From Membranipora membranacea (lineage: Eukaryota; Bryozoa; Gymnolaemata; Cheilostomatida; Membraniporidae): a stretch of DNA of 64,000 nucleotides. The stretch lies in the NCBI GenBank assembly GCA_914767715.1, contig OU612073.1:2480001-2544000 (forward strand). The letters run 5' to 3'. Of this stretch, positions 8,913-63,798 are shown in pieces. Under the pieces are notes generated by a model that was not told the origin of the DNA, did not search any database, and saw nothing but the letters and a program-made list of their open reading frames with translations. The translations under genes and the position numbers were made by a program. Position 1 is the stretch's first letter. Each line of letters begins with the position of its first letter.

Positions 8913-11504
8913 CTAAGATGTGACATCAGCTTCAGGTCTTAACTTTGCCACTTTCCACTTCAAAAACAACCGAGAGCTTTCCTTTTCTCCTTCAGTGATC
9001 TCTTCTAGTTCGCCTGGATAAACAAATAAAGTACATATGTTGAGGAAAGAAGATCAAACAACCACTGGGTTTTGAAAAGTCATGATTGAAATTAACATTT
9101 GGTTTACTTCTTGTGGGTCAGAAGGAAAAGAAAAATTCCAAAACTGCTGGCAGATTTCAATCAAATAAATTAAGCACAATCAGGACCATGGGCTAAGAAT
9201 CTTGGAATCCTGAAGGGCCAGTGCATCAGAGTAAGGGTGCAGACCCCTGAGGAACGCCAGCCGAACAAAAACTCACAAATTGATCAAGGTTAAATCTTAA
9301 GATTGATTTGAGACCAGGGTTAACACTCTACCCTAGAGTTCCTCTCCTGGGATCTGGAGCTACAATTGGCACAACAAGGTTCAAGTAAATGGCTAGTTCC
9401 AGAATGCACTGCACATTGGGACAACAGTGAAAACGTTAAACTCAGACATACCAGGAAGCCAGGAGAGATAAGTCAGTCTTGGATTTCTGAGATCAGTAGT
9501 GATACTATCTGGATGTTCTCCTTGTTTTCTCATATCTATTCCAGGCTGTAAGAAGAGCATCCTGGTTCCCATATTACAAGTTATCCTCGGCATCTGAGCT
9601 ACGTATGCCTCTTCCTTTCTCTCAGGAGGGAGAGATGTCTTTAGCTGGATAGTTGCCTTTACAGTGAACTTATTCACTGCTTCCTGTATCTGTTAAACAA
9701 CATGTCCAAATGCTTAATCAAACTATCTAGTTGTGAGTTTGAAAGTTTGATCTACGTTTCAGAGTTTCAATGATGTTAAACGCAACAGTTTTAACTTACA
9801 CATACCATTCATTTGTCTCAATTTTCAAATAAGTATCAAAATTTGGCAATGACATTGAAAAATGAAATTCATATGGAATCTGTCAAGATGGTTTAGTTCT
9901 TAAGGTAGAAACTTATGCACAAAAATATTACTTTAAACAATGTCATGTACTTACTATGTTTCCCAGCATCTGAAGGTGATATCGATGAGCATACTTGTAG
10001 AAAGTGATAATCAAACCTCTTATGAAGGGCGATCCATTTTGATCTCGAGGAGCAACAAAACCTGAAACACATCAATCAATATAAAAATATGAATAGTTTA
10101 TCGCTGCTTTTCAAGCTGGTAGTGATCAGGGGATTTTATTTGTTTTAATCAGATAGTCTCTGTAGGGTTATTTATGTGAAGCTACTTTTACTCACCGTCA
10201 AAGCTAGACTGTATGATGAAGAGATCAGCTACCAAGCCATCTTCTGGTTTGTTATCCATATAGTATGTCCTTATACGTGAGTTGTCTCCTGATGCTTGAC
10301 CTAATTCTGTACGGACTTCTGTGTGCACTGCTGGGTCAGGTGCTATGACATCATCGAGCATTATATCCCTGTTACCTATAAATATGACAACAGTAACATT
10401 TTAGTTCACTTCAACTGATAACTGAAGGAGTACCTCTAGGTTTGATCCAGAGACATATTTTGCTATCAGAGTAAAATACAGTTCATATATAAATCCATAT
10501 ATATATATATATATATATATGTAAATATATATATATAATTATATATAATTATATATAACCAATGACCTATCAGGCTATCTAACATACAGTTATTGCATCA
10601 ATGAGAGGGAGTTCATTGATTGCATCAGGTAAGGTAAACATGATTTCAATCGCGAAAAATAATTATGGTTTTTGCTGATGAATGGATGTCCCAATAGAAA
10701 TATACATACATTACAGTCGTCCTTACTTTGTGAATTAGATCAAGTATGATCCAATTTGCCTGGTTACATGCCGCCAGCAGTTGAATGGAAACAGCCACAA
10801 TGTGGTCAAATAGGATCAATCCTGATCTATTTGGGCATGGTAAGACTTAGACTTTGATATGAATGTGCTGTGCTCTGATGGCAGTGGTCATTTGTATTTA
10901 GTAGTAAAATTTACTAACCTCCAGCGCAGGCTTGTATAATGATGAGTTTTGGTTTTCCTTTCATAGCCGGGAAATTTCTGGCTGAGATTAACTGATAGAT
11001 TTCAGTCAGCCTGATGTGTTCGTCATCGGACCCTTTGACGCTCCCTTCAGCACCATGACTAGTTAAAACCAGTACAAACATTCCTAGATCTTCGTATACT
11101 GAGCGGCCTGTCTGGTCTACCAGCTGAGTTTCTCTGTGAATATCTGTCACTATATCCTTTAGAAAATCAAATGTTCATTGTCACTGGGCAGCGATTGAGA
11201 CCGGCCTCACTGACAGAACGTAGTCAGGGACATTAATATGAACTAACTCACTGATGATTGAATAGACCACAAAAGGAGGCTGCTGCCTAGGCTAAATAGA
11301 CAATGGAAAAATGTTTACCTTTGACCTGTAGTTTTTATACTCTCCATTCACAACAAACCCAAAGTTATCCAACATATTCTTCATATTCTCATGATCTTTG
11401 TCAGCACCCTTTCTCCAGTCTAACTCTCCCTCTAGGTTTGTGTACTCAAACTTATTAGACAGTATGAGAGCTCTACCTCTTGTCTTAGTCATCTTATATA
11501 ACAT
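8913..11504 (-). CDS. caspase (peptidase C14) part of the Roco-caspase gene
   Basis: Six exons, about 349 residues. The start is a typical p20 N-terminus (YKMTKTRGRALILSNKFEY, then RKGADKDHENMKNMLDNFGF). The catalytic His lies in TSHGAEG (about residue 1128) and the catalytic Cys in QACAG (about 1171). In the small-subunit part, ADLFIIQSSFDGFVAPRDQNGS fits the substrate-pocket segment (Arg kept) and SPFIRGLIITFYKYA the helix after it. Length and order suit an active caspase. The QACxG position is Ala, where Arg, Gln or Gly is usual. Asp residues in the 40-residue inter-subunit stretch (after QACAG, around LDDVIAPDPA and SGDNS) could be cleavage sites. Confidence 0.85.
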
Positions 11505-14500
11505 CTAAAATAGGATGATGTAATATGCTATGTTCACATCATGGATGATCGCGAAAAATGAATATTGTCATCTCGAAGAAAATATTTGTACTACAAAACT
11601 TGAAGGTTTGTGCGGCAGCAGGGAGGGTGGGAGGCGGCAGGTGACGTAAACGTTACACTGTGTCTTAAAATAAACAATAAATAAATCAATATGCTCTCCC
11701 CTATTAAGGAAAATTACCAGTACGTACACATTCATAGTGCTCAGAGCATCATTTGAATCAGTTGTTTGCATCACATTGTGAATCAAATAATGAATAGTCA
11801 ATGATGGGAGTTGTCCACTCTTTGAACAAGTATACACTACTACTAAATATGGATGCTTGTCGTTACCTCGACCAGTTATGTGTAGGAGTAATATTTCATG
11901 CATCTCTAATAGATCTGAGCAAATATGACCAAGAGGGTAGATGAAAAATATGTTCATATAGAGCCACTCAAAATTAGGTATATTGGACTAACTTACCATT
12001 TCCTGTGAGATAGTTGACTGTAAGTCACTGATGACCAGCGGTAGGTCGATTATTGGAGGTTGTGATTTCATCAACTCTATGATCTCATCCACAGCTTCCT
12101 CATTATTCTGTGTATCATTTCTGACATTCTCTCCACCAGCTGCTACTGCTCTGTGTGTCTCTTCTGGTTGTACAGCTGTGGGGCATTCAAAAGGAAATGT
12201 GAGAAAAATTAACAAAATTAACAATGATATATAACTTAGGATAATAATGATATTATACTCTTGTTACAGAAGGTGAATTTAGATTCCCTGTACAGACCCA
12301 GACCAGCTGATGTATCTGGTGGCTGGAGAGTGGAGATATAGGTGCTGACTTTATCTTTTTCTGCTTCTGTCAGCGACAAACCTGCCGAAACAAAGAATTG
12401 ATAATGTTATATACCCAAACAAATGAGTGATTCACATTCTACAACAGAAAATATTTTTATAAAAACAGATGAAAACTTTCTACTTGCATGGCAGAAAGTA
12501 GAAGTAAAAGCAAAAACATGTACAAGATACAAGATTTATGCTTGGTCTCCTCACACTTACAAGGAAATCTTAGAGGCCTCGGTACTTGGAGTTGTCCACC
12601 GTTAGTTTGGTCGTTACAGCAGGGCACAGGGTCAGCGTTAGAGAGGAGTGTGCTCAGCTGATGAGAGAGAGGTACATCTTTGTTAGTGTGTCTCAGAGGA
12701 GAGTACCAATCTGGATCTACTTCTGTCTCAGGCTCACACTCTTGTAGATACAGACAGTGAGCACAGTAGAACTTACAGATAGGTCGAGCTGCAACCCAGA
12801 TAGACAGCAGGTGGTTGATAAGTGAGTCTGTGATGCTGATCAGCTGCTTCCATGAGGAATCTAACTCCTCCACAGGTGTATCCACCTGAACTGTGACTCT
12901 GCGATCAGACCTGCTGTGTCTTACACTGCTAACAGTGTTACCATGATGTACCATAGCTCCACTCCGAGCTGTTCTGATACGAATTCCAGAGTCAGTGAAG
13001 GGGGACAGATATACACATGTTAGCAGGTAGTATGCATATGAGGGAGGGGATAGGCCAAGAAACTTGATATCTACTCTAAGTTGTAGAAGTTTGTTGTCTG
13101 TAGGAATAAGGTCCAGTGAGTCAGTGGAGAAGTAAGGGATGATGAATGTATTTCTTGGTGTTGTGTGAATTGGACCACATAAGATATGGAATGCCTTGAG
13201 TACTGGCAACGCAACCTTATATGGAAAGTTGTGTTGTGAATACAAACTCGAGAGAACAGCCTCATCAACAACACCACTTTGCAACAGCTGACCAACAAGT
13301 TTCTCATACTTCACTTTAGGAATCGTCTCATTTCCTACAGCTATGAAGTTTGGTAGGGCTGCCAGTCTAGACTCCCATCGATCTCTCAATCTGTGATGAA
13401 ACAAAAGGGCGATGGCATCAGTGACGGCAGTAAGTCTATGGAACACATATCCCCTCAGACTATCCTCATGTTCAAACCACAGAACTATACCAACATTGTG
13501 CATGTAGCGGAGCACCGTCAGATTTGCGTCACCTGGGAATTTCTTTGTGACTTCAGTGAGAAGAATGAAGGGCACATCACTGTTCTGATCAAAGAAGAGA
13601 AGCAGTAACTCCCAAAGTTTTGGGATTATTGTGAAGAACGGTTCAGCTCTGATCTGAAGGGTCTGCAATATCTGAAGAATAATCTCCTTACTGTTATCAC
13701 TGCTATCTAACTCAAATATATTCTGCGGAGGAAAGATTTCTGATGATGACGAGAAGAGGGCAATACTACAGAACTCAGAGGGACCTTTAGTAAATCTCTT
13801 CTCTTCCTCTATCATATCCCTGATTAGAGAAGTCAGAGTACCTAGCAGCTCAATCTTTCTGGTGTCAAAAAGAGAAACATCAGGGAATTTGTCTTTATGG
13901 GTGAGGACAAGAAGAGGATGGCCTAGATGAGGACATGACACATATAGATGTGACATGTAGTCCAGGACTAGTATCCTCACCGCTTCTTTTGGGCCACCTG
14001 ATGACAACAACTCCTCAAACTGCTCCATATTGACAACAATGACTGGAATATAATTACTTCGTATTACCATATGATAGGTAATATGGTAAATACGGTCACC
14101 TCCAAAATCAAAAACTTTCAACTGTGACTCTCCAACTGTGATCTCAGCCATTTTGAAAACCTCAGTAGTGTCATCCTCAATCCCTTCTCTGTTACGATAT
14201 GCGAGACTTCTTTCCTTTGTTTTCAAACTATTAATGAGACTAGTTTTACCTGCCATTCTGTTACCGATCACTGCTGCAGAAACTATAGGGAGCTTTACAC
14301 CACCGTGCTGTTTGAGATCTGTGTAGTATTTTCTTATAGCCTGCAGGCCCTGCTTACAGACTGCATAGGGAGGAGATGTCAGAGCTTCACAGTAAACACA
14401 GTCCAGCTCCTCTAGAGCAGGTAGAAGAAGAAGACGAGAGTCTAATGATTGGAGTTTTCTGTTACCGTAGATGTGCAATTTCTTGAGCTTCTTCAGTTGT

Positions 14501-17500
14501 ATAATAACTGGTGGGAGAGATGTGAAGCTATTATCTCCTATAAATAATCTCTCCAGGTTCGAGAGATTTGACAACCTGAAACAATAATTGTATGAGCTAT
14601 ACGAATTAAGATAAAATACAGACGTCTATTCTCAATATCAGTCTATAGCTCTTTTGGCACCATTGCCTGAAATAATGGTAAAGCATCAAAGGGCAGATGA
14701 TAGTGTTGCTCAAGTATCACAAATATAGACATGACATAAATTTAATTCAACACTGTGTTAATTGCATCATGCATCATTGGGTGATTATATCTGGTAGGTC
14801 GTAACTTGTCTCCCTTCGCTCAATATCTCACCCCATCCCAACAACTCCTCACCAATGAGTGAATTTATGATTAATTTGTATTTATAATGGCTATGTGCGG
14901 ATTCAGTACCTCTGTGTACAAATCCCAAAATAAGCATTCATGGCCAACATCAGTGACTTTGATTTGTAAGTCGATGATGTAATCGCAACATAGGGAACTT
15001 CAAGTAGGCTGCCCTGTTCATATTTTATTATTTTATTATGTGTGATAGTTTGGCAACTTTTTGAAAAGGCAAAAATTGACATCTTAGCTCGGATTCGCAG
15101 CCTCTTTGTGTTTTTTGGGAAATTCTCACAATTCCTCAAAGGAGGTTTTTCTGAAGAGAAATATATTGTCTTCGAAGCAGTGAAAGAAAACCTCATGGCC
15201 AACATAGTCTCGCTTCTCATGTCTTATATGAGCTCTTATATGAGACAGCAAGATGGCGCTGATGGCTACTACCTCCACTACTATCGACATCCTCAACATG
15301 GAAGCTCTACACCTAATTTTATCATCCTACCAAAAGCTTCATAGGCGTACCGGGGCAAAAGGTTCTTTTACAGATGCGATTTCCACCATGTTGAAAATGA
15401 TCAGATGTTAATCAGCAGTTCTCAGCTCATCTCTACATTTTAGGTATGCAGTTGACTCTGCAGGCATTTTCTATCTACTTTGTTTGTTGACAGTTGACAG
15501 TAAGAGCAAGATGGCGCTGAATGTCGCCAACCAATGCTTTGAAAATATACAGCGAAGAGGCAAGATATTGGTTTCAGAGAAAAAACTTCCACATTTTCAA
15601 AAAGCCGGATTTGATGACGACAATTAAAAAACTATGGTAAACACGTCAAACATCACTACTGTATCATATGTATATTTTGGGTCTACATTATTTGAAAATA
15701 TTGCTTGTAGTATAGACAAAACGGAAAATATTTTTTCACTTTATATTTGCTCCTAAAACGTACAAAATATATTTAAAGACATCGAGAATTCGTCTTCATG
15801 GTGTGAAATCCTAAAATTTTGGAAAACAGAAAAAGCGAATTTTTTAGAGGGAAAATAATTACTAGTTGTCATCTTCTTGTACAGGAAAAAACCAATCTTT
15901 AAACTTAACTATATCATGATCATTCTTAAAGGACAACTGTCGTATTCCTGTATTCCGTATGATCTTTCTGAATTTGGGTAACTTGAAATTTGAGGATGGC
16001 TTTAAAAGACCAGCGGAAACATACATACTTATATCAGTATATCGAATATCTATATAATTAATAAATATGATGATGCTGTTTAAAAAACCTGTTGGAAATA
16101 TATATATATATATATAATATAGATAAAATGATATATATATATATATATATATATATTTCTATCAGTCATAATATACAGAACACACACACATACCTGGTAC
16201 TGATATCAGTGAGCCCACAGTGAGACAGATACAGCTTAGTCAGCTCAGTCAGCTCACACAGACCATCAGGTACAGATCTGAGTGGGTTATCAGTGAGGGC
16301 CAGGTACTGTAACTTAGTCAGCTGTGATATCCTGTATTATATATAATATGAGTCAGATATAATTACTTGTGCTGGAGGATTAATATTATACAGCAAGATA
16401 TTTCTCAAACAATATATTAAATTTTCTTCATTTCGCATGAATATGATCAAAGTATATCATAATATCTCATATTAAATCTGAATATCTATATAATTAATTA
16501 ATATAGAATTATTCTCTGGCTACATGAGTGCAAAGATGAATTTACGATACTGATATCAGTCATAATATACAGAACACACACACATACCTGGTACTGATAT
16601 CAGTGAGCCCACAGCTCCTCAGATCCAGCTCAGTCAGCTCAGTCAGCTCACACAGAGCATCAGGTACAGATCTGAGTGCAGTGTTATTACTGAGGTACAG
16701 GCTCTGTAACTTAGTCAGCTGTGATATCCTGTATTATATAAAATATGAGTCAGAAACAGTATCTTGTGCTGGAGGATTTAAGTTATCATACATTTTTAAA
16801 TGATAAATCCAATTTTCCTCATTGCACATAAACATCATCAAACTATATCATAAATCTCATATCAAATCCGAATATCTATATAATTAATAAATATAGACTT
16901 ATTCTCTGGCTACATGAGTGCAAAGATGAGATTGTACAGCACATGTTGTTTAAAATTTTATATATTAGTACATATAGAACATGGCCAAGTTCAATACACA
17001 AGTTTAAATACTTTAATTACTAATTCCTTGATGGTATGCAGTAAAGTTTTTTGTTAAGTTCCAAGATTAAATCTAATCATATATTTTCAATTTGCCTATG
17101 TATGTTATTTGTGGTGTATACTGGCCACCAATAATAAAAATGGGCGATGCAAGAGTAGCCGGTGTCACATAGAAGGCTGAGGATAGATTGTTTCATGTAA
17201 GGTTTTCTCATTTTCAATTCCCATCAAAAGAATGGAACAAAACGACATCAAATAAGACTTAATTCAAGCTTGCTGTTGGATAAGAATATTTTGCTAATGC
17301 TTTAGTAAGTGTGAGTAAGCGGGCTGTGAGACAAGGATAGAGATAATAGGAGCCTTGCCCGGGTCATATCACTGATAAATAACTCAGAAATTTAGCATAA
17401 TAGTATCATGTGTACTCTACTTACCTCTGCCATTCAAATGTGCCCTGCCCGAGAGAGCCTTCATCAATATCCTCCAGTCTGAGCTGTAGGAGATGAGGAG

Positions 17501-19201
17501 CTAAAACTGGTAACCAGGAGGGGATACTCATCAGACCAGAGATACTGAGATGAGTGATAGAGTTATCTCCCTTATCTAACTCTATCTCATCCCATGTCAT
17601 GTCTCTGTAGTCTGCCTCCGGTCTCATCTCTATCTCCTCCTCTCCTGAGTGTCTGTACCAGACTCTGTACTTATCTATAATGTGATTATATTATAGATAA
17701 ATATAATAAGGTATTAAAGATCATAACTATTATAATTATATTGATCTTTGTTTGCTCATAATACTTATATGGGAATGTAAGATAACAGTTAGATAAATTG
17801 TTGTCAACAACACTATAGGATTTAGAATGAAATACAGGTACAGGTTGGTCGGTGTGGTTTTAGTTGCCTGATCTTAGGTGCAGAATACGTTACATTTGAG
17901 GAGCAGTCCATTTGATAAAACACACCAAACAACCTGTGAGAATAGGAATGCAACAAAATTATGAGTTGTCTGACCTTACATGCCAATTTCTATTGCTTAT
18001 AAAAACCGTCAGCAGGGAGAATTATCCCTGCTTTTAGCTGTTGCAACAGTTTCTGTTTCCTAACATTAGGAAAACGTCCCCTCATTTAAGAGATTGAAAT
18101 ATTGTCATGAAAGCGGAACAGTTCTGAGCTATTTTCAGTTACTGAAGAGGTTCACTGCTAAACAGGTATAATGATGCCCTTTGCTTACAACAATGAGTAA
18201 GATAATTCCCTCTGTAAACAGGAAATACAGTCATACCATCATTATCAGTGTTATCCCCTCTCTCACCAGCAGAGTTATCCCCTCTCTCATCATCAGAGTT
18301 ATTCCCACTCTCACCGAAATTTGATTCGGAGTTATCTACAATCTCAGCTGGTATGTTGACCTCCTCCTGGTATATCTCTTCAGTGATGTCATTTCCACTA
18401 CAAGTTACACAGTCTCCCTGATCTGATAGAAATACATCTGTGTTAGCTGCTGAATTTATGCATCACAAATCATGAGTGTAATATTACAGTTTGTTTTTAG
18501 TTTGACAAGGTTAATCAACTCCGCCTCCCCCGTGGGTTTCATCATAGACAATGATAGTGAAGAAATTTTACGATTGATATGAGTCTCAGCAAGTTTTGCG
18601 CTGAAAAATATGTCCTGTAAATAATGATCAACCACGCATCTCTGTATAAAGGCAAACTGTTAATGGAAATACCCATCCGGGGCCAACTGGCCATCCTTTT
18701 CACCTTGTATCAATTTCAGCATGTCACCATAACAAAGCCATCTGGTTGCAAATATTGTAGCCGGATGGCCTAGCAGCAATTTGTATTATAAACCCATCCG
18801 CATGGCTGTTTGGCAACTGCTGGTTGCCCAATACCAACTAGAAAGGGCATTCATCAGCCTACTGATGCCGTATACCCATCCGTATCTGTCTTTATCCCAG
18901 TAAACTATTCTGGATGGTTTCCCCCTATAAAAACCCATCTGGCAACTGCTGGTTGCCAAGTTGTCATCATGCAGCTGACAAATAGACCGGTTGGTACTTT
19001 GGAAACCATTTGATTTCCAATATAGCTAAAGAAACTTTCACTCAGCAATTTCCAAGGCTAATTGGTGCAAAATAACCTACTGAAATGGCATAAGATAAAT
19101 TAGATTGTCAAACAATTTCATCCTTACCATCAGAAACTGACTGTCCATCACCTTTAGCTGAGGGAGGAGGATCATTCCCTTTTGAGGAAGGCTCAGCTTT
19201 T
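8913..19201 (-). CDS. LRR-Roc-COR-caspase fusion protein (5' end not seen)
   Basis: Fourteen minus-strand exons: 19201-19128, 18422-18237, 17674-17425, 16728-16588, 16331-16194, 14575-12561, 12381-12268, 12175-11997, 11504-11319, 11156-10919, 10375-10196, 10061-9955, 9689-9452, 9013-8913 (stop 8915-8913). All junctions are AG/GT and all phases match, giving one frame of at least 1,381 residues. Order: acidic Ser/Asn-rich N-terminal part, LRRs (about 100-310), Roc GTPase (about 360-550), COR (about 560-930), short linker, caspase (about 1033-1381). Roco proteins are STAND-like GTPase switches; caspases are Cys-dependent Asp-specific proteases. One chain with both suggests a ligand- or nucleotide-controlled protease, cytosolic (no signal peptide or membrane segment seen). 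No CARD, DED, death or kinase domain is seen in the visible part. The first visible exon enters in phase 2, so at least one upstream exon is missing. Function is inferred. Confidence 0.85.
12561..14575 (-). CDS. large exon: end of LRRs, Roc GTPase and COR domain
   Basis: One 2,015-nt exon. After the last LRRs it holds a Ras-like Roc domain: P-loop GNRMAGKT (about residues 367-374), G3 motif DFGG (about 419-422, followed by Asp where many Rocs have Gln) and G4-type THKD (about 488-491). The following ~380 residues (GEFF-like PFFTIIPKLWELL, FPGDANLTVLRYMHNVGIVLWFEH, then a Cys-rich end) match the usual COR layout, including the typical 'dropping-in of helix-turn-helix then length/position of YxxH' pattern only loosely. 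Roc and COR together form the GTP-controlled dimer switch of Roco proteins such as LRRK and MFHAS1. No kinase follows; the chain continues through a ~100-residue linker into the caspase exons. Confidence 0.85.
14576..16193 (-). other. intron of the Roco-caspase gene
   Basis: A 1.6-kb intron with no supported exon. A short motif AGCAAGATGGCGCTGA-like is present twice (about 15246 and 15507), and a (TA)n tract lies near 16098-16156. Confidence 0.5.
16194..17674 (-). CDS. LRR-coding exons of the Roco-caspase gene
   Basis: Exon 17674-17425 opens the repeat region (HLSISGLMSIPSWLPVLAPHLLQLRLEDI). Exons 16728-16588 (141 nt) and 16331-16194 (138 nt) each code about two LRR units of the LTKLQ.L.L..N.LRSVPDGLCELTEL type, both flanked by phase-2 introns, so they can be added or skipped without changing frame. 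Repeats continue into the start of the large exon (NLERLFIGDNSFTSLPP). LRRs usually bind ligands or partners, or hold the GTPase in an off state. The two short exons look like a recent duplication (see findings). Confidence 0.85.
18640..19010. repeat. intron segment with repeated CCATCCG and a palindromic motif
   Basis: Inside a Roco-caspase intron. ACCCATCC-type motifs recur about six times, and GGCAACTGCTGGTTGCC, itself a 7-bp-arm inverted repeat, occurs twice (about 18811 and 18939). No coding sense seen. Confidence 0.5.
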
Positions 19202-19521
19202 CTGAAACATGAAAGATAACTTCCCATACCTGTTTCCTATAATAGAACAAGTGAAAACTTCTGCATCCAAATGTCGTCAGACAGCTTACGTATACAATAG
19301 GGACCCTGATATGTTTTAATCAATCTGACAGAAAAGTCATTGAATTCTATAACTCCACTGACCGTAAAAAGTAAAATGTTTTGGTCATCTTGTTTTGCTT
19401 CCTGACCAATTTTGGTACATGGTTGAGTGTTCTTAATTCAGTTTAAGAGTAACTGGGAGAGGGAACAAAATATATATAACATTGTTTAAAGCCCTATGAG
19501 ACAGGATGCAAACCATGCGTT

Positions 19522-24000: not shown

Positions 24001-24163
24001 TTAAAGTCTTTTCACACTAATTTGCCATCAATAATGACAAACTCTAATTGCTGTGACACGCAGACACGGCGGTTTTCAAGCAGCAGTTTCTCTTGATTTC
24101 ATACTCGTTATGGCTTTATGTCATGCGACTGACCATACAAACCTATTATTGTCAGTTATACAG

Positions 24164-25040
24164 TTTAACGATTCCCTATCGTTAGGCTTTCAGTTTAGTG
24201 GATAATGTGACTTGGGATTTTTACTGATGGAACTTGGACTTTTGTCGTACAATTTATAACATTTATTGTCGAGCTTTACCGAGATTCACACCGTGAAATC
24301 TAAAAAGATTAACACAAACAATGACTACATGACTATGTATAAAAGCATTACACAGTTCTCAAAAATTTAACTTTATACTTTACAACTTTTAAAATAAACT
24401 TTTACTTCCAAAACGTAAAATTAATAAGGTGTCAAATGCATCAATCCTGATGCCAAATTAAGTATTTGCACACTTCAAGGTATATTTATAATATAGTTAA
24501 TCTTTGAATGAGGAATGCAGGTTGCAATAAAATGATAAGGTTAATATTCATACCTTTTGCCTTTTTCCTCTAAACTACTTTTGTATATACTATCTTGATC
24601 TAACTGATCTGAGTTCGTAATAACGTGAACTGCCTTCTTTCACATGTAAAATTACACTGAACCAGGATAAGTTCTGCCAGATATACAGGGAACACACCAA
24701 CACAAAGACCAGGGCGGGCCCAAATCCCCCCAGACCAATCACGGACAGCCAACGCCCCATAAAGATGTTGGGAGGTGGCCAGAAGCTGCAACACATACAC
24801 TCCTCGACACAATACTGCACCCTGGATCCCCTGTTTGAAGAGTAAATTACTCTATTGTCCCCTGAAATTGGACTGAACCTAATCCTGCAGATGAGAGCAG
24901 TGACAATTTATTTGGAGTTGAAACGAGTCTCCAGCTTAAGCTGGTGAGACAAAAGAACTTTTAATTTGAATATATAATACATGGGTTTGTTACATAATGA
25001 ATTTAAGTTTGTTTTTGTAAAGCTGATGAGTATCTTTACA
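24164..25040 (-). repeat. 3' LTR (left copy)
   Basis: 877 bp, with no difference from the right copy seen on reading. At its outer end is TAACGAT-TCCCT-ATCGTTA, a 7-bp-stem hairpin. A short minus-strand ORF (24590-24820) appears in both copies only because the LTR is duplicated. Confidence 0.9.
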
Positions 25041-25609
25041 CTCCCATCTTGATTTTTCATAAAAAATTAACAATACAGAGAAAGGTCGATCAGCTCTGCT
25101 GACTGTTCCAGACCCGGAAATAAAACTATACTAAGTCTTGACGTAATATACGGGATTAATGGGATAACTATATATGAGGTTTATAACGTATATTAATGAG
25201 ACATATGGGGCAATGTAGCATCTGGAAAGTTTTCGCCAAGTTAGATCACAGTTTGAGTAAATACTTAATTGAAATAGGAGAAGTCACAGACCAGACATAC
25301 TTTGGAATTCTTCAAGAGCGAGAATCTGCAAACCCCCTGGAGTCTGGGCTGTTTATTTATACATATGAAACAGGATCCTAACAGAGCCAGTGGCCAGCTG
25401 GTTGTATTTACTAATTGATCTAGCAGCAGAATCTTACTTATTCTGTCCTGCCACCTGCTCCAGTGTCAACAGACCTCTCACTGAACACCTTGAGCAGCTA
25501 ACTTGAGAACTTTGTGACAACCTCTATTTTAAGAGAGCATTACGCTCCCACCGTGAGCTTTATGACTTCGACAATCTATCTACTTCAAGCCTGAGATAAT
25601 AGTGAGACA

Positions 25610-27211
25610 TTACTCCTGGAACCCTCTCTCGACAACTCTTGCTTTTGAATTGTTACATGGCTCTACGAAGTTTGGAACTAGTACTGTTCTTGTCTGTCTC
25701 ATTGCAACTTTATTGAATAATTTATGATGCGATCTCACCTGGAAACCCTCAGCTACCATCTGTACACGTGTCAGCCTGACATCGTTGTATGGTTTAGCTG
25801 GGGAGTTCCCTGGTGGTAAAGCATCAGTCACACCGAGTTTTCGTATCATATTTGGGGTTTTAGGACGGGTGTGTTTGTTGTCGATCTGCATCACTGGTAA
25901 TGGCCTGGAAGTCACAGTTTCCCCATCAAGTGATCCAAAGTGCAGCATACCGCTATATATGTATGCATATATGAGAAAATACATGAAGGTAAACAAGAGG
26001 ACGTGTCTGTTGAGCTCAGTTCTACACCCCTCCCTTTTCGCAATCGGCTTAGGTGTCGGCCATGGTTTAACTTGAGGGCCTTGAGTTGCAGGTTTGAGTG
26101 ACATGGCTTCTATAGCCAACACAACTCTTTCAGTTGAGAGATCAAAATTTTGATTCAACGAATTCACAGTTTTATCATCGTTCGGTTTATCCAAATGGGA
26201 TGGATTCATAGGAATTGAGTCTATGACCTGTACAATTGCTACATCTACCTCCACATCATCTTTAATGGAAACTGGAATTGTGAGACTGGATTTGACAGTA
26301 TTATTTATTGCTTCGCTGTCAATTGCCTTTGAACACATCTCAAATTCTTTCCCCAATACATCCCGGCCTAGTGGTGATTTGGCAGCAAAGAACTGCTCTT
26401 GGCTGCCCTTGATTACCTCAACCGGAGTGAGGGCATCAATGCATGCACTATCTAACAGAGTAGCTACAGGAGCATCTAGAGAGGGAGGGAACGGATAGGC
26501 TATATCTTCTACAGTTTCCAGAGATTTACTGGTTGGTGTTTCCATGATTATCTCCTCTGTATTAGTTTCAGGGATAAGCTCATTTGTTATGGCGATTGGC
26601 GATGTCTGAGGTGGAGAGGGGGGAGCGACAGGGATGATACCTACTTTTTGTCTTTTCCTTGCCTCCCTTTTCACTATGAACTGTTTAAAACGCTCCAAGG
26701 ACAAAGCTCGTGCTGCCCCTCTAGCCCTATCCTGTTCTAGTTCTGTTACAAGGTCAGCTCTCAGGGAATTTGCTTTCTCCTCAAAGTTCTGTACTATGGG
26801 AAGGAGGTTTTCATGCAGATTAAGGCCATGAGTGGAGCACAAATCCTCAAGGTCAGACGCTTGGGCCAATATCTTGGCTAAATCAAAGTCGAGGGCCCTA
26901 ATAATTTTATCAACAGAGAAACAAGAATTATCAAACATGTTCTGGAAGTCTTCTAAGATAATAGGACAGTTTTCAGATAATTCATTAAATAAATGAACTG
27001 CTCGATGCTTGACTGCAGATCTAGTTTGATGCACCAACAAGGGAGCGCCTACTTTGCTCTTGACAGATACATCACTTCTACTGTCGTGGTTACTACTGTC
27101 ATCAGACATCTCATTTACGTTATCTAACTGAGAATTCTGAGAGCTGATCTGATAATCAGATTGCCCAACCAGTTGATCGCTGGCCGCTTCGGCAGACACT
27201 GGGTCAGTCAT
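25610..27211 (-). CDS. single ORF of the LTR element (533 aa, Gag-like or unknown)
   Basis: A long uninterrupted ORF from ATG at 27211, the only sizeable ORF of the interior. Residues 1-60 are Ser/Asp/Asn-rich; 60-190 are helical and charged (HLFNELSENCPIILEDFQ, ending in a basic KREARKRQK); 190-400 are acidic and Pro/Thr-rich. One strongly hydrophobic segment (HVLLFTFMYFLIYAYIY, about 405-425) looks like a membrane span, and a basic C-terminal part follows. No zinc knuckle, protease DTG, RT YxDD or integrase motif. Position suggests Gag; the membrane segment could instead mean an Env remnant fused to Gag, or a captured host sequence. Not recognised. Confidence 0.6.
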   Translation of the reverse strand: MTDPVSAEAASDQLVGQSDYQISSQNSQLDNVNEMSDDSSNHDSRSDVSVKSKVGAPLLVHQTRSAVKHRAVHLFNELSENCPIILEDFQNMFDNSCFSVDKIIRALDFDLAKILAQASDLEDLCSTHGLNLHENLLPIVQNFEEKANSLRADLVTELEQDRARGAARALSLERFKQFIVKREARKRQKVGIIPVAPPSPPQTSPIAITNELIPETNTEEIIMETPTSKSLETVEDIAYPFPPSLDAPVATLLDSACIDALTPVEVIKGSQEQFFAAKSPLGRDVLGKEFEMCSKAIDSEAINNTVKSSLTIPVSIKDDVEVDVAIVQVIDSIPMNPSHLDKPNDDKTVNSLNQNFDLSTERVVLAIEAMSLKPATQGPQVKPWPTPKPIAKREGCRTELNRHVLLFTFMYFLIYAYIYSGMLHFGSLDGETVTSRPLPVMQIDNKHTRPKTPNMIRKLGVTDALPPGNSPAKPYNDVRLTRVQMVAEGFQVRSHHKLFNKVAMRQTRTVLVPNFVEPCNNSKARVVERGFQE

Positions 27212-27894
27212 AACTGAATTGCTTACTTTTTACAAAAAATGTAAATAAGGTTAGTCTTTCAAGAAGTGAACTACAGATTAAATACTATGATGACATACTG
27301 CTTGTGGCATGCAGCGTGTAATTCTGATAACAATAGGCCTGTTTGAAATGACAGCTCAACTCCTTAGACTTGTACCTCAAAGGTAACGTTACAACACAAC
27401 AAGTGTCACTGTCTCATCACAGGCTAAGAACTTTGTTATCTATTTAAAGGGCCACCATAGAGTAAGTCACCGTTCAACAAGAGTTCCCAAATGCGCAGTG
27501 CCGAGAAGCATAAAAGCCCGAATCCGCCCCCGCCAACAACCTGGTTAAATCGCTGACCACAATTAAATCACGAGGGGGAAATGGTCCCGACCTGGGCTAA
27601 GTGATGGGATAATTCCGGGCAAACCTGGCAGAAAAATATCCTGATTCAGTTTACAACCAAAAATTAAAAAATTAGCTGAAATAAAAAGATAATTCTCCTA
27701 AGATCAATTAAAAAATAAAAAACTGACTCTAAGTCAATATTGAATATAATACAACTTATCACTTTCCGCTGCTGCTTCACCGAAAGTCTGTCCTGGTGGT
27801 TGAATATCCTAGGGTAGATTGTTAATTGTTACTGAGATGTTTCGCTAGAGGTTTGACCTGTTCGTCGTGAAATGTCTTGTCGGCAGAACTCGCT

Positions 27895-28064
27895 GCTATC
27901 CGCTCGGAGTATCCTTATCTGCTGAGAAGCTATCTGCTCGGAGTATCCTTATCCGCTGAGAAGCTATCTGCTCGGAGTATCCTTATCCGCTGAGGTGCTA
28001 TCTGCTCAGAGTATACTTATCTGCTGAGAAGCTATCTGCTCGGAGTATCCTTATCCGCTGAGAA
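27895..28064. repeat. 34-bp minisatellite, 5 copies
   Basis: Five head-to-tail 34-bp units (start GCTATCTGCTCGGAGTATCC, end CCGCTGAGAA) with a few substitutions. They end 14 bases from the 5' LTR, in the element's leader region. Confidence 0.9.
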
Positions 28065-28078
28065 GCTCAAGATTTCAC

Positions 28079-28955
28079 TTTAACGATTCCCTATCGTTAG
28101 GCTTTCAGTTTAGTGGATAATGTGACTTGGGATTTTTACTGATGGAACTTGGACTTTTGTCGTACAATTTATAACATTTATTGTCGAGCTTTACCGAGAT
28201 TCACACCGTGAAATCTAAAAAGATTAACACAAACAATGACTACATGACTATGTATAAAAGCATTACACAGTTCTCAAAAATTTAACTTTATACTTTACAA
28301 CTTTTAAAATAAACTTTTACTTCCAAAACGTAAAATTAATAAGGTGTCAAATGCATCAATCCTGATGCCAAATTAAGTATTTGCACACTTCAAGGTATAT
28401 TTATAATATAGTTAATCTTTGAATGAGGAATGCAGGTTGCAATAAAATGATAAGGTTAATATTCATACCTTTTGCCTTTTTCCTCTAAACTACTTTTGTA
28501 TATACTATCTTGATCTAACTGATCTGAGTTCGTAATAACGTGAACTGCCTTCTTTCACATGTAAAATTACACTGAACCAGGATAAGTTCTGCCAGATATA
28601 CAGGGAACACACCAACACAAAGACCAGGGCGGGCCCAAATCCCCCCAGACCAATCACGGACAGCCAACGCCCCATAAAGATGTTGGGAGGTGGCCAGAAG
28701 CTGCAACACATACACTCCTCGACACAATACTGCACCCTGGATCCCCTGTTTGAAGAGTAAATTACTCTATTGTCCCCTGAAATTGGACTGAACCTAATCC
28801 TGCAGATGAGAGCAGTGACAATTTATTTGGAGTTGAAACGAGTCTCCAGCTTAAGCTGGTGAGACAAAAGAACTTTTAATTTGAATATATAATACATGGG
28901 TTTGTTACATAATGAATTTAAGTTTGTTTTTGTAAAGCTGATGAGTATCTTTACA
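28079..28955 (-). repeat. 5' LTR (right copy)
   Basis: Same sequence as 24164-25040, offset 3,915. It would hold promoter and polyadenylation functions for the minus-strand transcript; no canonical TATA box was singled out. Confidence 0.9.
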
Positions 28956-28960
28956 TACAG

Positions 28961-30661
28961 TATATAGATATATACATGTATACAGTATGCTCATAGTGCA
29001 ATAAATACATAGTAATATATAGTCAGGCGGTTAGTTTCGCAGTGTTAGAAATTGTCCCAATAGTGTATACGCCTGTTCACAGTATTGAAATGTCGGACTC
29101 GAGACTTCTATACCCTATTCTATTCTACACAAATTGGTAATTTACTCAAATTAATACAGAATTTGGTTTAACCAAGTCGCAATTATTCAAATAAGCTATT
29201 CTCCGATCAACCTGCAGATGACATGGGACATGTCTGCGAAATGAAAAATGACTAGGAATATCAGCGGCCAAACGGGGATATTGGGAAATATAGTACCGAA
29301 ATCAGGCGGAAAGTTGCATAATGAATAATAATTTGTGAGAAAGGCTGTAGAAAGTGAGCTTAAAAAATCTGACAGCTTCTCTTGCTGATGTCTTGGCACC
29401 ATCCAGCAATCAGGATACATCTATTGACCAACAGACTGAAGGGTCAGATCAGGGAGTTTGGGACATTGTTATATCTGAAACTAAGGGTTTTAGGATGATC
29501 CTCTCAGTAAAAAGCTGTCTGTGGATTTCCTCTCTACTCGCCGCCAGCTTTTGGGGTGACTCTACAAGTAATATAATCCTCATGTGAGTAATCTAGCTGT
29601 CCTCATAAGTTTACATATTCTTTATCTTTATCAGCGTTGATGACAGTTGATTCTGTGATCCTCCGTAGTCATATCCAGTAGAGTGTCAGTAGTAATATCA
29701 TCAACTGTAAATGATGCTAGCTGGGCTGGACAACGTTTCAATGGTCAGCGGGTGGGTTATTAGTATGAAGAAAAGAAGAATAAAAAAGACATGACAACTA
29801 CTATGTACATAAATTACCATGATGGATGCTAGCGGGTTGGCTGTGGTCAAACTGCCGCTTCACTCGCCCATCAACCACCCACGACCCACCTCAAACACAG
29901 GGAGCGATGACAACCCCCAAGAGTAGCCAGCAGGCCATCAAGGACTCAAGTGGGCTTAGATTCAATAAATTGGGATTATTTATGGGAGGTGAGAAGGTAT
30001 CAAAATGATTATGCCGTAGATTTTAGGGCTCACATTTGGAAGGAGTGTTTCTTGCCATCAGTGTTGATGTGACACCTAGTAGCTCCGTACCTGGTGTTGT
30101 GCTCGGAGTGGTATGGAAGGAACCTGTTCCTGTCGACTGCTGCGTCATCTGTGATGATTCTAGGAAATAGACATCTATCGATATTGTTTAGTATTCGATG
30201 TTGCACGGTAAACAGCCATAAGTAGAGTCCCTTTCTCGATCTCGTCTTTTTCTTTATTGTTTTGCTTTTCGTGTTTCTATTTGTAGCGTCCTACAGCCTA
30301 CTTTTAGTTTTGGTTTCTTAAGGATCCATAATATGGTAGGTTATATATATAAGGTATAACATGATCCCTCAGTATGAAATATGATGGTAGTAGTCTGCAC
30401 TATCTGTTTGCTGCTATATGCATACTTGCCAACCTGTAACTTAGTGTGTCTGACTGGTTTCTGGCTGAGTCATGTTATTTATGCCTTTGTACTCCAACTT
30501 CATCTGAAATGGGAGTTTCCTTAACATTATATGAGGTAGGGCAACTCAAAAGTAACATTGCTGAAAATCAGCAGTGAGCAGTGGAGCAGAGAGGTTGTGT
30601 TTTTGATTCACGCTCTCTACTAATTGCTATTTATGGCTAGATAAAAAGAAATTCTACTATC
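28961..30661. other. interval without a recognised gene
   Basis: Short ORFs (29354-29587, 29826-30008) have some coding look (LADVLAPSSNQDTSIDQQ; TTPKSSQQAIKDSSG) but no clear splice partners or family. The right part may include the 5' UTR of the LINE that starts near 30.6 kb; its exact 5' end is not visible. Confidence 0.4.
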
Positions 30662-31780
30662 ATGGCGCTTGATTTGAATAAATCAGGCAAAAGATTTAAA
30701 TTTTATGCTGTCATTGCTGGGCATAAAGTTGGACTATATAACGATTGGGATACTGCCAATCTCCAAGTGAACGGCTACAGTGGAAATAAACACAAAGGGT
30801 ATGAGACGGAGGCAGCTGCTTTAAAATATCTTAAAACAACTGGAGGCATATCAAATCCAATCAAATATTATACCAAAGTATCTACAAAGGATGCTAGTAC
30901 CGGATTAGGCACAAGCAGCGACAGCAACAAAACATCAACATCCACAGGCCCTTCTACACCGCTTTCCACGATGACAACAGAGAACATGGACACTTATTCA
31001 CTGCAAGCAGAGTCTGACCTGGACCACTGCCAATCATGCCAGAAAATGCTGAGCATCATCGAAATTATGTCTGACAGACTAGAGCAGATGCATGCTAAGC
31101 TAGAAGCATTATCTATACCAAATGAAAACCCCATTGAGAGAGCAGTTCAAGTCATGTCAGAGAAACTAGACATGATGGAGGCCAAACTTGACAAAGTCTC
31201 CTCACCCCCAGCTGATTATCGTCAGGCAGTAATGAGAAATATCCAACAACCGATTCCGCCTAAGTCAGCTTTCACTGAACAAAGAAACCAATATCACCAA
31301 TCTCTCAACCAACGAGAACAACCTCAACAGACACAACAACAGCAGCAACAGCAACAACAGCAACAACAGCAGCAACAACAGCAGCAAAGGCAACAACAGC
31401 AGCAACAAGCACAACAACAACGTCAAGATCAGCGCCTTACACAACCACCAAAAAGTCAATATACTGACAAATCTACCCCTGAATTCGACCATGAAAAATG
31501 CTTTATAATACACAGTACAAAACAGGACTTCACGTCAATCAGTCAGGATGACGTGAGAAAAGCAATCGGCAAATTAAACGGACCAACGATGATTGACTTT
31601 ATCAAGCGATACAAATTCAACTCGGCAGACCCGAAATTCATACTACAGATAACAAAACCTGAACAAGTAGATATAATAATAAAAAATGGGAAGCTGAAGC
31701 ACTTGGAGGCTCATCAGCAAGACGACCCATTCAACCGAGCCAACATGTTGGCATCATCAAAGATGTTCCTATTTACATAA
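30662..31780 (+). CDS. LINE ORF1, first frame (372 aa)
   Basis: Residues 8-60 (FKFYAVIAGHKVGLYNDW, then QVNGYSGNKHKGYETEAAALKYL) match the RNase H1 N-terminal hybrid-binding (viroplasmin-like) fold, which grips RNA-DNA hybrids and dsRNA. Next come a Ser/Thr-rich region, a coiled coil (CQKMLSIIEIMSDRLEQMHAKLEAL), a run of over 25 Gln broken by few residues (about 220-260), and an RRM-like C-terminal part. The frame ends at TAA 31778-31780, overlapping the ATG of the next frame. ORF1 proteins bind element RNA. Two proteins or one frameshifted protein are both possible. Confidence 0.8.
   Translation: MALDLNKSGKRFKFYAVIAGHKVGLYNDWDTANLQVNGYSGNKHKGYETEAAALKYLKTTGGISNPIKYYTKVSTKDASTGLGTSSDSNKTSTSTGPSTPLSTMTTENMDTYSLQAESDLDHCQSCQKMLSIIEIMSDRLEQMHAKLEALSIPNENPIERAVQVMSEKLDMMEAKLDKVSSPPADYRQAVMRNIQQPIPPKSAFTEQRNQYHQSLNQREQPQQTQQQQQQQQQQQQQQQQQQRQQQQQQAQQQRQDQRLTQPPKSQYTDKSTPEFDHEKCFIIHSTKQDFTSISQDDVRKAIGKLNGPTMIDFIKRYKFNSADPKFILQITKPEQVDIIIKNGKLKHLEAHQQDDPFNRANMLASSKMFLFT
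31681..31687 (+). promoter_or_regulatory. A-AAA-AAT heptamer, candidate -1 frameshift site
   Basis: In the ORF1 frame the bases read A AAA AAT, the X XXY YYZ form of a -1 slippery site. From here the -1 frame is open (WEAEALGGSSARRP, then QHVGIIKDVPIYIMNEDL) and joins the 31780-32007 ORF without a stop. It could equally mark a chance deletion in an A run. Confidence 0.4.
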
Positions 31781-32007
31781 TGAATGAAGACCTCCAACAA
31801 GAGGTCCAAACAGTATTCAAAGACGCTACAGTGTACCGAATGAGGACCAAAGATGGCACTAACCCTCTACGAACTGTAAAAGTTAACTTCAATGATGAAA
31901 CACAGCTAGGAAATGCACAGGCAAACGGCAAAACCTTTAACAAGCATCAGCTTTTGTTTCGAGTAGAGAAACCGTACGTCTTCCCTCCCAGGACCTACAA
32001 TGGCTAA
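31780..32007 (+). CDS. LINE ORF1, second frame (C-terminal part, 75 codons)
   Basis: Continues the RRM-like end of ORF1 in the -1 frame; the stretch before its ATG, GIIKDVPIYI, already reads as ORF1 in this frame. Its ATG overlaps the first frame's stop (TAATG) and its own stop overlaps ORF2's ATG (ATGGCTAA), the arrangement of termination-reinitiation. It lacks a CCHC zinc knuckle. Confidence 0.65.
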   Translation: MNEDLQQEVQTVFKDATVYRMRTKDGTNPLRTVKVNFNDETQLGNAQANGKTFNKHQLLFRVEKPYVFPPRTYNG

Positions 32008-61400: not shown

Positions 61401-63798
61401 TAGCTGATACCTCAGAGGTATAGATTCCATCAAGTATGCATATCTGTGTTCAACAAAATATATAGATAGATAATATATTGTATGGTCTAAAAATAGAAAG
61501 ACAAGGAGGAGGTAAATCTCCCAGTCTTGTGACACCTATAAAGCCATGGCTACATGAGCCGATTTTTACATCGACTTGGGGTCACGAGTGGTTAATCGGG
61601 GGATCTGCACGAGTGATTACTCGTGTTAAGTGGACATCGAACTTGTTGGTCTTTTGCCAGAGTGATCTGGACGATCCTCTATGCTGATTGGGTGTCACTA
61701 GATAAAGTTTGATACAGTTTGTCGTCATTGTAGTTGCTACCCCTTCAATAGATAAGCTTACCTGGTAACTGAAATCAACTTGTTCAGCCATCATGATCAT
61801 GTCTTATTTCGCTTAGGACATATTCTAGGACCTTAAGTAGTGATATTCTTTCTACAACTACTATAAAGTTTTGCCGATTTGTATGAGAATAGTTTGAATT
61901 GTCTGATAATAATGCATGGAAAGACGACCTCTGGGAAGTTTTGATTATTGGTAACCTCATTATCTGCCGAGAACTACAAATATTATTGAGCTAGAAATCG
62001 ATAAAACTTACTTGCCAGCCTTTACTTTAGCTATACCCAAATCACTGCCGTTAACAAATACATCAGGATTCTGTGACATAAAATTCCACATCTTCTCATA
62101 GGTGGGGATTTTAGAATTCTGTAAGCAAAAACATACAATGTGATGAATCATTAACATCGATGAGTCTCAAATTATAACAACTTTATCGTACAAATATTTT
62201 TTTACGATTTTAAGGTACTACAATTACCCAACATTGCAGACATTGAGAGAGTAATTCGGACATAGAAGCTGGGCAGACGATTGCTTCTCCCATCCACAGG
62301 CTTGCTAATAATACAACATGTAAAAGTGAATTAGATCAGATTCAGTTGCACGGAAAGCCGCTTCACAAAAATAGCTTTGGGAGCGAGGCTAACTTATTCT
62401 ATCCGCAGTGAACTGTCTAATAGCCAGTGGAATGGCTCTGATTGGCTGTCTGACTGACCAAATAGCAAATCAAAAGAGCCAACATATTGGCTAACTGTTT
62501 ACTAGCTACTCACAGAAATATTCTGTATGAAAATATCAAATATTGAAATAGAACAATTATGAATTATGCAATTATTAGTATTTGAATTTCCTGATATCCA
62601 GATCAAAGAACATTGGGTAATGAATCTAGATGTTAAACCCAGTATGCAGAAATATTTTATTTCCGGACTCACAAATAAAGGGCAGGTAGGTAGAATGAAA
62701 CAGGCATGTATTTTCTTTAGTTTAATGTGCCCATTTTTTAAACCGAAAAAAAGTTAACACTACAGTGTAAGCTGATTAATTCAAACTTTATAATTCAAAA
62801 CTCCTGTTAATTCAGACAAGGAAAATTGGTCCCTTCAGTCAGATCTCAATGCATTATAATGTCACCTAATCCGGACTCTGCTTAATTAGAACAAACTTTT
62901 GTGGTCCCCAGAGGTTTGAATTAAGTGGACTGCACTGTAACAAGAAATGGACATCGAGACGTTCACAAACCTTGAAGAAGCTCATAGTAGATCCGCCGTA
63001 GTAGGCTCCGTATTTGATGGAGGTTTGTTTGGCCAAGTCGTCGGCGTTTTTGATAGGAGCAGTCATCCTGGTAATAGTGAGGAAGGCAGCGAGGTTAGCT
63101 GTGTATGAGGAGATGAGGATCAGAGTAAAGAACCACCAGACACCAGCGATTATCCTAGTGGAGCTGGCCTTCGGTGCAAGCTCACAACCTGTTAAAGAAG
63201 ATTACACTGTTCTTAACAATCTTGCTAGTCTGAGCACTTAGACTACAATCTGGCTAGTGTGAGCACTGACTGAAGTAGGATGTAAAATTAGGCCATTCCC
63301 TCAATTACATATTCTGGTGATAAGAGCTTTGATCTAATGGCTTGGGGGGTTTTTGGTGATGGGAGGTTATCTAGATGGTAGTATTTCTTTGGAGAAGCTT
63401 TATAATTTGCCATAGATAATATGGAGGCAGTCTATTATATGAAGCAAAAATACAAGTTACACCTTATACGACCAGCTGTGTTTTGTGATTGCCAAAGCTA
63501 TCGATTGAATCTACGACAACAAATTTATATTGATTTCACAAATTGAAGTATAACGGTATTCAAATTGATACTACTGTTAAGTCTCACAAAAACATAAAAA
63601 TATGTAAAATATGTGTGTAAGGATATAGAGAGAGCGAAGACAACTGTAAAAGAAAAAAATTGTAAGTTGTCCCCCTTACCTTGCTGCATTAGAGAGCCGA
63701 TGGTGAACCAGAAACTGTTGAGAAGCGTGAAGTCATTCTCCACCATGTCAGACTCAGGGTTACAGGGATGGGGATTCTTCCACTCGTACGGACTGAAT
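58490..63798 (-). CDS. ionotropic glutamate receptor, kainate/AMPA type, 3' part
   Basis: Exons: 63798-63680, 63188-62971, 62118-62012, 61443-61239, 59314-59135, 58660-58490 (TGA 58492-58490); all phases match; 332 residues. Order: extracellular [12 protein letters not shown], re-entrant pore loop ending SLMQQG (Gln at the Q/R site), channel helix M3 with [11 protein letters not shown], ligand-binding S2 half ([19 protein letters not shown], glutamate-contacting [19 protein letters not shown]), M4 ([23 protein letters not shown]) and a short tail SLCSEI-like ([16 protein letters not shown]). The amino-terminal domain, S1 and M1 are outside the window. These are glutamate-gated cation channels of the plasma membrane. 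The [10 protein letters not shown] stretch and S2 are closest to kainate types. All visible ligand and pore residues are kept, so it is probably functional. Confidence 0.93.
60208..60416. mobile_element. palindromic foldback element in a receptor intron
   Basis: Two ~95-bp arms pair almost perfectly over the inner 75 bp (AAGGAATTTGGTGTGA at the outer side, TAGTCTAAGTACC near the centre), with a very small loop (ACTCAGAGT). Pairing fades outward. No coding sense; target duplication not seen. Confidence 0.8.
62763..62937. mobile_element. Tigger/pogo-like MITE
   Basis: Ends CAGTGTAAGC... and ...GCACTG, each next to TA (62761-62762, 62938-62939). Inside are TTAATTCAGAC, TTGGTCCC and GTGGTCCCC, and TAATCCGGAC, the sequence style of pogo/Tigger termini. 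No transposase. Lies in a receptor intron. Confidence 0.7.

Follow-up and report, generated by a model that had tools for sequence, protein, structure and literature searches.

A review of the Roco proteins groups them into LRR-RocCOR proteins (LRR, leucine-rich repeat), Roco kinases and DAPK, describes MFHAS1 as LRR plus RocCOR only and, in the portions available, does not use the word caspase (PMC6337361). Among prokaryotic LRR-AP-GTPase-COR proteins no fewer than 24 different domains occur at the C-terminus, and a caspase is one of them (Kaur et al. 2021, PMC8195603), and AP-GTPase-COR is mentioned in prokaryotic ternary systems (PMC7159879). Aplysia proteins in which Roc-COR is joined to a TIR or death-like domain have been described (PMC9334734), amphioxus has at least 45 caspase genes with unusual domain combinations and DED/DD recombination (PMC3196919), and the ROCO genes of brown algae shuffle single LRR exons (PMC11378527). 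Here we analyzed a predicted minus-strand Roco-caspase gene of the bryozoan Membranipora membranacea, located in a 64,000-nucleotide stretch of chromosome 9 (contig positions 2480001-2544000, hereafter the window). Comparison with paralogs and with a second genus supported the original prediction that a single gene encodes an LRR-Roc-COR protein joined to a full caspase. The accompanying claim that no such family had been described was correct only in part: the prokaryotic LRR-Roc-COR protein with a caspase is already in print (PMC8195603), while no report of an animal Roc-COR-caspase was found in the full-text literature as judged by titles and abstract openings, a body of text that mostly excludes subscription journals. 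In the available text of two bryozoan genome papers none of the terms caspase, Roco, MFHAS1, leucine-rich, immun or apopto occurs (PMC13326412, PMC11480708). What appears to be new is therefore an animal caspase on a Roco effector receptor, in NLR-like numbers, rather than the architecture as such.

Reconstruction of the gene showed that 14 exons, from 19227 to 8913, splice into a single 4,200-nt frame (1,399 amino acids plus stop; Table 1). All 13 introns had GT-AG borders and agreeing phases, and the junctions between COR and caspase were in phases 1/1, 1/1 and 0/0, as first predicted. Two details of the predicted exon chain required correction. The boundary placed at 19201 is only an internal AG; the ATG at 19227 opens the first coding exon (MGSYLSCF...), a TAG in the same frame lying four codons 5', and copies of this 33-residue exon 1 occur at 13 chromosome-9 positions, every one on the minus strand and matched from residue 1. 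The exon 7 donor at 12268 is GT in only four of 12 copies (AT in six, GG in two), whereas a GT at 12297, which leaves the phase unchanged, is present in all 12 copies with a recognizable exon 7, namely the window gene and 11 paralogs. These come from an alignment of 13 of the 25 loci read, out of 65 found with exon 6 (the 20 best and the last five); the thirteenth, L028, has no recognizable exon 7, and the 12 left out had another linker or were too diverged for blastn. Because of this uniform GT, exon 7 probably ends at 12298, which would make the predicted protein 10 residues shorter (a chain of about 1390-1400 aa, depending on this donor).

Table 1. Features of the window (positions are those of the window).
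Feature	Position	Strand	Description
Exon 1	19128..19227	-	Start codon 19227, MGSYLSCFRKAEPSS...; N-myristoylation-type start, Gly2, Ser6, plus Cys7
Exon 2	18237..18449	-	Acidic linker, probably disordered; contains 24-bp tandem repeat
Exon 3	17425..17674	-	KYRVWYRHSGEEE motif and lead-in to LRRs; Watersipora P0001 counterpart RVWYRHTGEAE
Exon 4	16588..16728	-	LRR exon, phase 2-2, two repeats; Pfam
Exon 5	16194..16331	-	LRR exon, phase 2-2, two repeats; Pfam
Exon 6	12561..14575	-	Single 2-kb exon: last LRRs, Roc GTPase, COR
Roc P-loop GNRMAGKT	14242..14265	-	Residues 385-392
Exon 7	12268..12381 as first drawn, more likely 12298-12381	-	COR-caspase linker
Exon 8	11997..12175	-	Linker
Exon 9	11319..11504	-	Caspase p20 start (MLYKMTKTRGRALILSN)
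Exon 10	10919..11156	-	p20; catalytic His1146 (11057-11055), Cys1189 (10928-10926)
Exon 11	10196..10375	-	p20/p10 linker, several Asp; p10 begins
Exon 12	9955..10061	-	p10, substrate-pocket Arg (APRD)
Exon 13	9452..9689	-	p10 end
Exon 14	8913..9013	-	C-terminal tail, TAG stop
LTR-like (long terminal repeat) element	24161-28822		Direct repeats of 300 nt, 100% identical, spacing 3,915, flanking a 539-aa frame without Pfam match
LINE-like (long interspersed nuclear element) element	30641-34927	+	Frame with RNase H1 N-terminal domain, then frame with reverse transcriptase and weak endonuclease match
Ionotropic glutamate receptor exon	62869-63201	-	PF00060, 1.4e-23

A Pfam scan of the window protein matched Peptidase_C14 (3.8e-28, residues 1059-1332), Roc (2.7e-7, residues 383-469, above the cut-off) and LRR families (best 1.1e-18). 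COR had no Pfam match, and in the whole chain no kinase, ankyrin, WD40, death-fold (CARD/DED, death domain), NACHT or NB-ARC match was found up to E 1. The motifs named in the prediction, GNRMAGKT, DFGG and THKD together with the caspase His (TSHG) and Cys (QACAGG) motifs, were all present in the translation, so that the Roc motifs of the Roco proteins (P-loop, DxGG and [TN]KxD-like) are in place. The predicted fold puts a COR directly after Roc: that of exon 6 aligned with the Roc-COR of LRRK2 and CtRoco through residue 671, in fold matches where one domain can fill the list and families not named carry no meaning. The same fold superposed on the LRR-Roc-COR of LRRK2 as far as LRRK2 residue 1857, indicating that the caspase sits after COR as the kinase of LRRK2 does. 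At the end of COR (12560-12770) the cysteines of a YCAHC...C...RFPC pattern were invariant or nearly so among relatives, and a metal site at the COR-linker border is possible.

Relatives of the whole chain were found in one other named genus. A protein search with residues 370-1395 of the window protein yielded 20 proteins, each of them from Watersipora subatra, and an alignment search, which scored the 7,990 candidates with the most shared 5-residue words, returned 36: 22 from Watersipora and 14 single-frame proteins from short contigs. The latter all ceased aligning at residue 953, which is the exon-6 donor, indicating that this boundary is old. Across searches there were 35 named W. subatra relatives. 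In 14 of them a single BLAST alignment with the window protein began in the Roco part and extended beyond the catalytic Cys, reaching residue 1196 or further, and in P0005 both parts were present in two alignments; 17 of the 35 had a precomputed Pfam caspase match. Many of these proteins bear the NCBI name MFHAS1, which takes no account of the caspase; Ensembl's annotation of Watersipora is mainly transcriptome-based (PMC12902671), and the proteins compared here carry NCBI names. A search with the caspase region of P0007 (E up to 1e-5) returned seven proteins, all from Watersipora and P0007 included. No caspase-carrying long protein was found in other named phyla, an absence weakly tested by searches on shared 5-residue words. 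One Watersipora model, P0016, continues after the Roco-caspase part into fibronectin type III repeats (Pfam) and has a C-terminal hydrophobic segment by eye.

The order and orientation of the two halves were also conserved within the genome of M. membranacea (339.3 Mb in 18 contigs, of which chromosome 9 accounts for 25.74 Mb). Ninety-five Roc loci were compiled from two overlapping searches, one with exon 6 (67 rows, giving the 65 loci after two split pairs were joined) and a second Roc search (67 of 148 rows kept for an open frame of 370 aa or more, 81 shorter rows left out), while the caspase search gave at least 145 matches, or at least 135 after merging. Because these genome searches score just the best candidates, the counts are lower bounds. 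A caspase match on the same strand lay within 5 kb downstream of at least 51 of the 95 long-frame Roc loci and within 12 kb of at least 53, the distance being measured from the Roc match rather than the exon end for the 30 loci from the second search alone. Among the matches listed, none of the 95 had a caspase within 12 kb upstream or within 14 kb on the opposite strand; random placement, with clustering ignored, would put a caspase within 5 kb downstream of about 0.09 Roc loci. In the opposite direction, 84 of the 135 caspase loci had no Roc exon within 5 kb upstream among the matches listed. The loci read individually gave a tblastn caspase match on the gene strand in 24 of 25 cases and on the other strand in none; in L033 this match was one weak fragment, and L032, which had no match, showed a diverged caspase-like stretch by eye.

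The linker exons were more strongly conserved than the introns around them. Between the window gene and eight paralogs (L016-L019, L021, L022, L025 and L026), exons 7 (to 12298), 8, 9 and 10 were 83-88%, 92-96%, 85-87% and 83-97% identical with no gap columns at all, whereas introns 6-8 were 49-78% identical over ungapped columns, with 53-279 gap columns each. Intron 9 was 43-50% identical, with 48-88 gap columns, in all but L019 and L022 (94-95%, no gaps), where a recent exchange may have covered intron 9. Three more closely related copies (L011, L012 and L014) were 92-100% identical throughout and do not discriminate exons from introns; in L028, where exon 7 was not recognizable, exon 8 was 60% identical. 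The ratio of nonsynonymous to synonymous substitution rates (dN/dS) was below 1 in all 20 comparisons (five mutually related paralogs by four exons). It was 0.29-0.49 for exon 7 (27 codons, five comparisons), 0.31-0.88 for exon 8 (five comparisons) and 0.19-0.32 for exon 9; for exon 10 it was 0.16-0.19 in four comparisons and 0.58 against the nearly identical L022. On the caspase exons 9 and 10 it was thus well below 1 in most pairs.

Several observations weigh against a single chain. Eighteen of the 35 Watersipora models have no precomputed Pfam caspase match, and four of them (P0010, P0017, P0019 and P0020) end or change, by eye, within about two residues of the start of exon 9; these could be truncated models or caspase-less isoforms, and more generally caspase-less forms may be common in Watersipora, or models truncated. 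All of the Watersipora proteins are gene models from a database, retrieved by their similarity to the fusion. In M. membranacea, 44 of the 95 Roc loci had no caspase within 5 kb among the matches listed, though four of these (L016-L018 and L020) do carry one when read. Cassette B (L010 type) has a linker of different length and composition, and selection on exon 8 is weak, with dN/dS of up to 0.88. The same models that stop or change before the caspase, and the 18 without a caspase match, would be expected if Roco and caspase were two adjacent, separately transcribed genes whose order had been kept by tandem duplication. That arrangement is nevertheless very improbable, as 14 of the Watersipora models run through the linker into the caspase and linker exons 7 and 8 preserve length, frame and most splice sites where the introns do not. 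Neither AATAAA nor ATTAAA occurs in the COR-caspase interval (12560-11505), a weak point against separate genes that is uninformative in itself because about 600 bp after the gene stop hold neither signal. A single gene for the whole LRR-Roc-COR-caspase chain is therefore supported, since 14 of the 35 Watersipora relatives align in one piece, caspases sit downstream on the same strand at many Roc loci, and the linker exons are better conserved than the introns.

Sequence comparison indicated that the window gene is a member of a large tandem family rather than a single gene. Besides the array on chromosome 9, clusters occur on contigs 1, 3, 5 and 10. The exon-6 protein of 13 copies on chromosome 9 was 88-94% identical to that of the window gene, and 12 of the 13 first exons were followed by a Roc exon on the same strand. 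At C9:2133555 (C9:2130015-2133653) a first exon and a caspase match were found with no LRR or Roc exon among the matches listed, perhaps representing a gene that has lost its sensor and switch. The number of LRR exons varied: genes of the chromosome-9 array had at least two to seven two-repeat LRR exons between exon 1 and exon 6, with neighbors 382-397 bp apart, counts that rest on the best 150 of 1,074 candidates. Exon 4 with its flanking intron is a tandem copy of the exon 5 unit (86% over 391 columns).

Different parts of the gene also gave conflicting similarities. In L010, L013 and L015, exon 6 was 94.8-96.5% identical, exon 9 80-81% and exon 10 86.5-87.8%, versus 91% for exon 6, 87-88% for exon 9 and 97-99% for exons 10-14 in L019 and L022. 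In these two sets the blocks of high identity stop close to the exon-6 donor and to exon 9. Because of this conflict between exon 6 and caspase, with block ends at those places, the pattern is read as an exchange of caspase cassettes between tandem copies.

The caspase part keeps the catalytic and pocket residues of its class. A p20/p10 fold, computed on the Watersipora relative P0003, was accompanied by the Cys-His dyad and the pocket Arg/Gln/Arg; the window gene retains both His and Cys, and the pocket Arg and Gln were invariant across the five caspase domains aligned. CED-3, caspase-9 and caspase-2 were the best-scoring animal caspases across two rankings, which disagree about the closest type: caspase-2 scored best with the window sequence alone (3e-15) and CED-3 with the family profile. 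In five paralogs (L010, L013, L015, L020 and L023) the histidine motif of the first cassette reads GHG instead of SHG, as might be expected if the caspase had lost its activity and served as a decoy or scaffold in the manner of c-FLIP. Such a role is improbable, as His and Cys are intact both in the window gene and in the GHG copies, the pocket Arg and Gln are invariant in the domains aligned, and dN/dS is low on exons 9 and 10 in most pairs. L023, L025, L026 and L028 had a further same-strand caspase match well downstream of the first, which could mark a gene with two caspases, an alternative C-terminal end or the remains of a copy.

The family is best read as an expanded set of NLR-like Roco receptors in which an initiator-type caspase takes the place of the LRRK2 kinase. 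With moderate confidence, we propose that the window gene, as one of this large tandem bryozoan family, encodes a cytosolic, probably membrane-anchored receptor-protease composed of a putative myristoylation-type N-terminus, an LRR sensor, a Roc GTPase, a COR dimerization module, a flexible linker and an initiator-type caspase. Initiator caspases are activated by induced proximity. At rest, the LRR would lie folded against Roc-COR, as it does in CtRoco and LRRK2, and would mask the caspase or keep it at a distance; ligand binding to the LRR, or exchange of the nucleotide bound by Roc, would move the LRR off and alter the COR-COR arrangement. Two caspase domains would then meet through COR contacts and dimerize, self-cleavage would follow at Asp residues of the p20/p10 linker, and the active caspase would cut local substrates, leading to cell death or inflammatory-type signaling. 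The anatomy (caspase after COR, superposition on LRRK2) fits the original idea of a GTPase-switched, adaptor-free protease resembling the apoptosome; the switching itself is inferred, as are membrane anchoring, GTP control, dimerization, a cell-death output and a role in immunity or allorecognition.

Two steps of the proposed mechanism meet contrary evidence. The MGSYLSC start (Gly2, Ser6, Cys7) fits an N-myristoylation motif, and for this reason the receptor may sit at the membrane, but just three of the 35 Watersipora models have a Gly2/Ser6 start (P0001 MGAKSS, P0026 MGCSLS and P0040 MGNGQS); three more begin MG without the pattern, and most begin otherwise. The order of GTP binding, dimerization and caspase activation may also be the wrong way round, since CtRoco becomes monomeric with GTP. 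The nucleotide-free bacterial Roco is reported to be a compact dimer whose LRR is folded back; binding of a GTP analogue swings the LRR about 135 degrees away and leaves the protein monomeric, and LRRK2 has its LRR over the kinase cleft (PMC11052575). The complex size of human MASL1/MFHAS1 is likewise reported to change with nucleotide (PMC3995007). The simplest model would be an LRR lock over a Roc-COR-caspase engine.

What such receptors might do is a more tentative matter. It is possible, though some way from probable, that colonial bryozoans use them for recognition, as a large set of adaptor-free receptors resembling inflammasomes, whose caspase is gated by the Roc-COR of its own chain rather than by a STAND ATPase, with changes in LRR exon number and cassette exchange diversifying sensing and protease for immunity or allorecognition. 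Caspases are widely developmental and bryozoans recycle polypides, so the role could instead be developmental or colony-level cell turnover such as polypide regression, with LRR variation tracking other partners and no part in immunity or allorecognition. We regard this as rather unlikely, because tandem arrays, varying LRR exon number and exchange of the kind apparent between these copies typify recognition families, and brown-algal ROCO genes with single LRR exons have been proposed as immune receptors on like grounds (PMC11378527).

A receptor of the proposed kind would give animals one more way, alongside NLRs and Apaf-1, for a repeat sensor to activate a caspase, and this in a phylum with little-known immune and allorecognition molecules. 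How Roco GTPases convert nucleotide state to output has been studied mainly with kinases, and a natural Roc-COR-caspase offers protease activity as an independent read-out. An animal counterpart of the prokaryotic LRR-Roc-COR-caspase also raises the question of convergence versus inheritance.

Comparison with known systems showed that the window protein shares its parts with several families. In LRRK1 and LRRK2 the enzyme after COR is a kinase; here Peptidase_C14 occupies that place, with no kinase, ankyrin or WD40 match in the Pfam scan. DAPK1-type proteins have a kinase before Roc, a death domain and no LRR, whereas the window protein has LRRs and neither a kinase nor a death-domain match in that scan. 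The NLR inflammasome and the Apaf-1 apoptosome likewise combine a repeat sensor, a nucleotide switch and caspase activation, but use a STAND ATPase for Roc-COR and recruit a caspase on a separate chain through CARD or PYD contacts; the window protein had no NACHT or NB-ARC match, its switch being Roc-COR, and its caspase had no match to the CARD or DED prodomain of canonical initiator caspases in the Pfam scan up to E 1. MFHAS1/MASL1 shares LRR-Roc-COR but ends there, without the C-terminal catalytic domain found here (PMC6337361). The Aplysia ROCO proteins, like the window protein, are animal Roc-COR proteins with an innate-immunity domain, but theirs is a TIR or death-like domain rather than a caspase, in a handful of genes with no tandem array described in the text available (PMC9334734). 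Amphioxus has a similarly large animal caspase family with unusual combinations, which are of DED/DD prodomains, the words LRR, GTPase and NACHT being absent from the available text (PMC3196919). The prokaryotic LRR-AP-GTPase(Roc)-COR proteins share the order LRR, Roc, COR and C-terminal effector, with several paralogs per genome (PMC8195603), a likeness of architecture only: the window gene is spliced and has an animal-type caspase, a myristoylation-type start and arrays of LRR exons.

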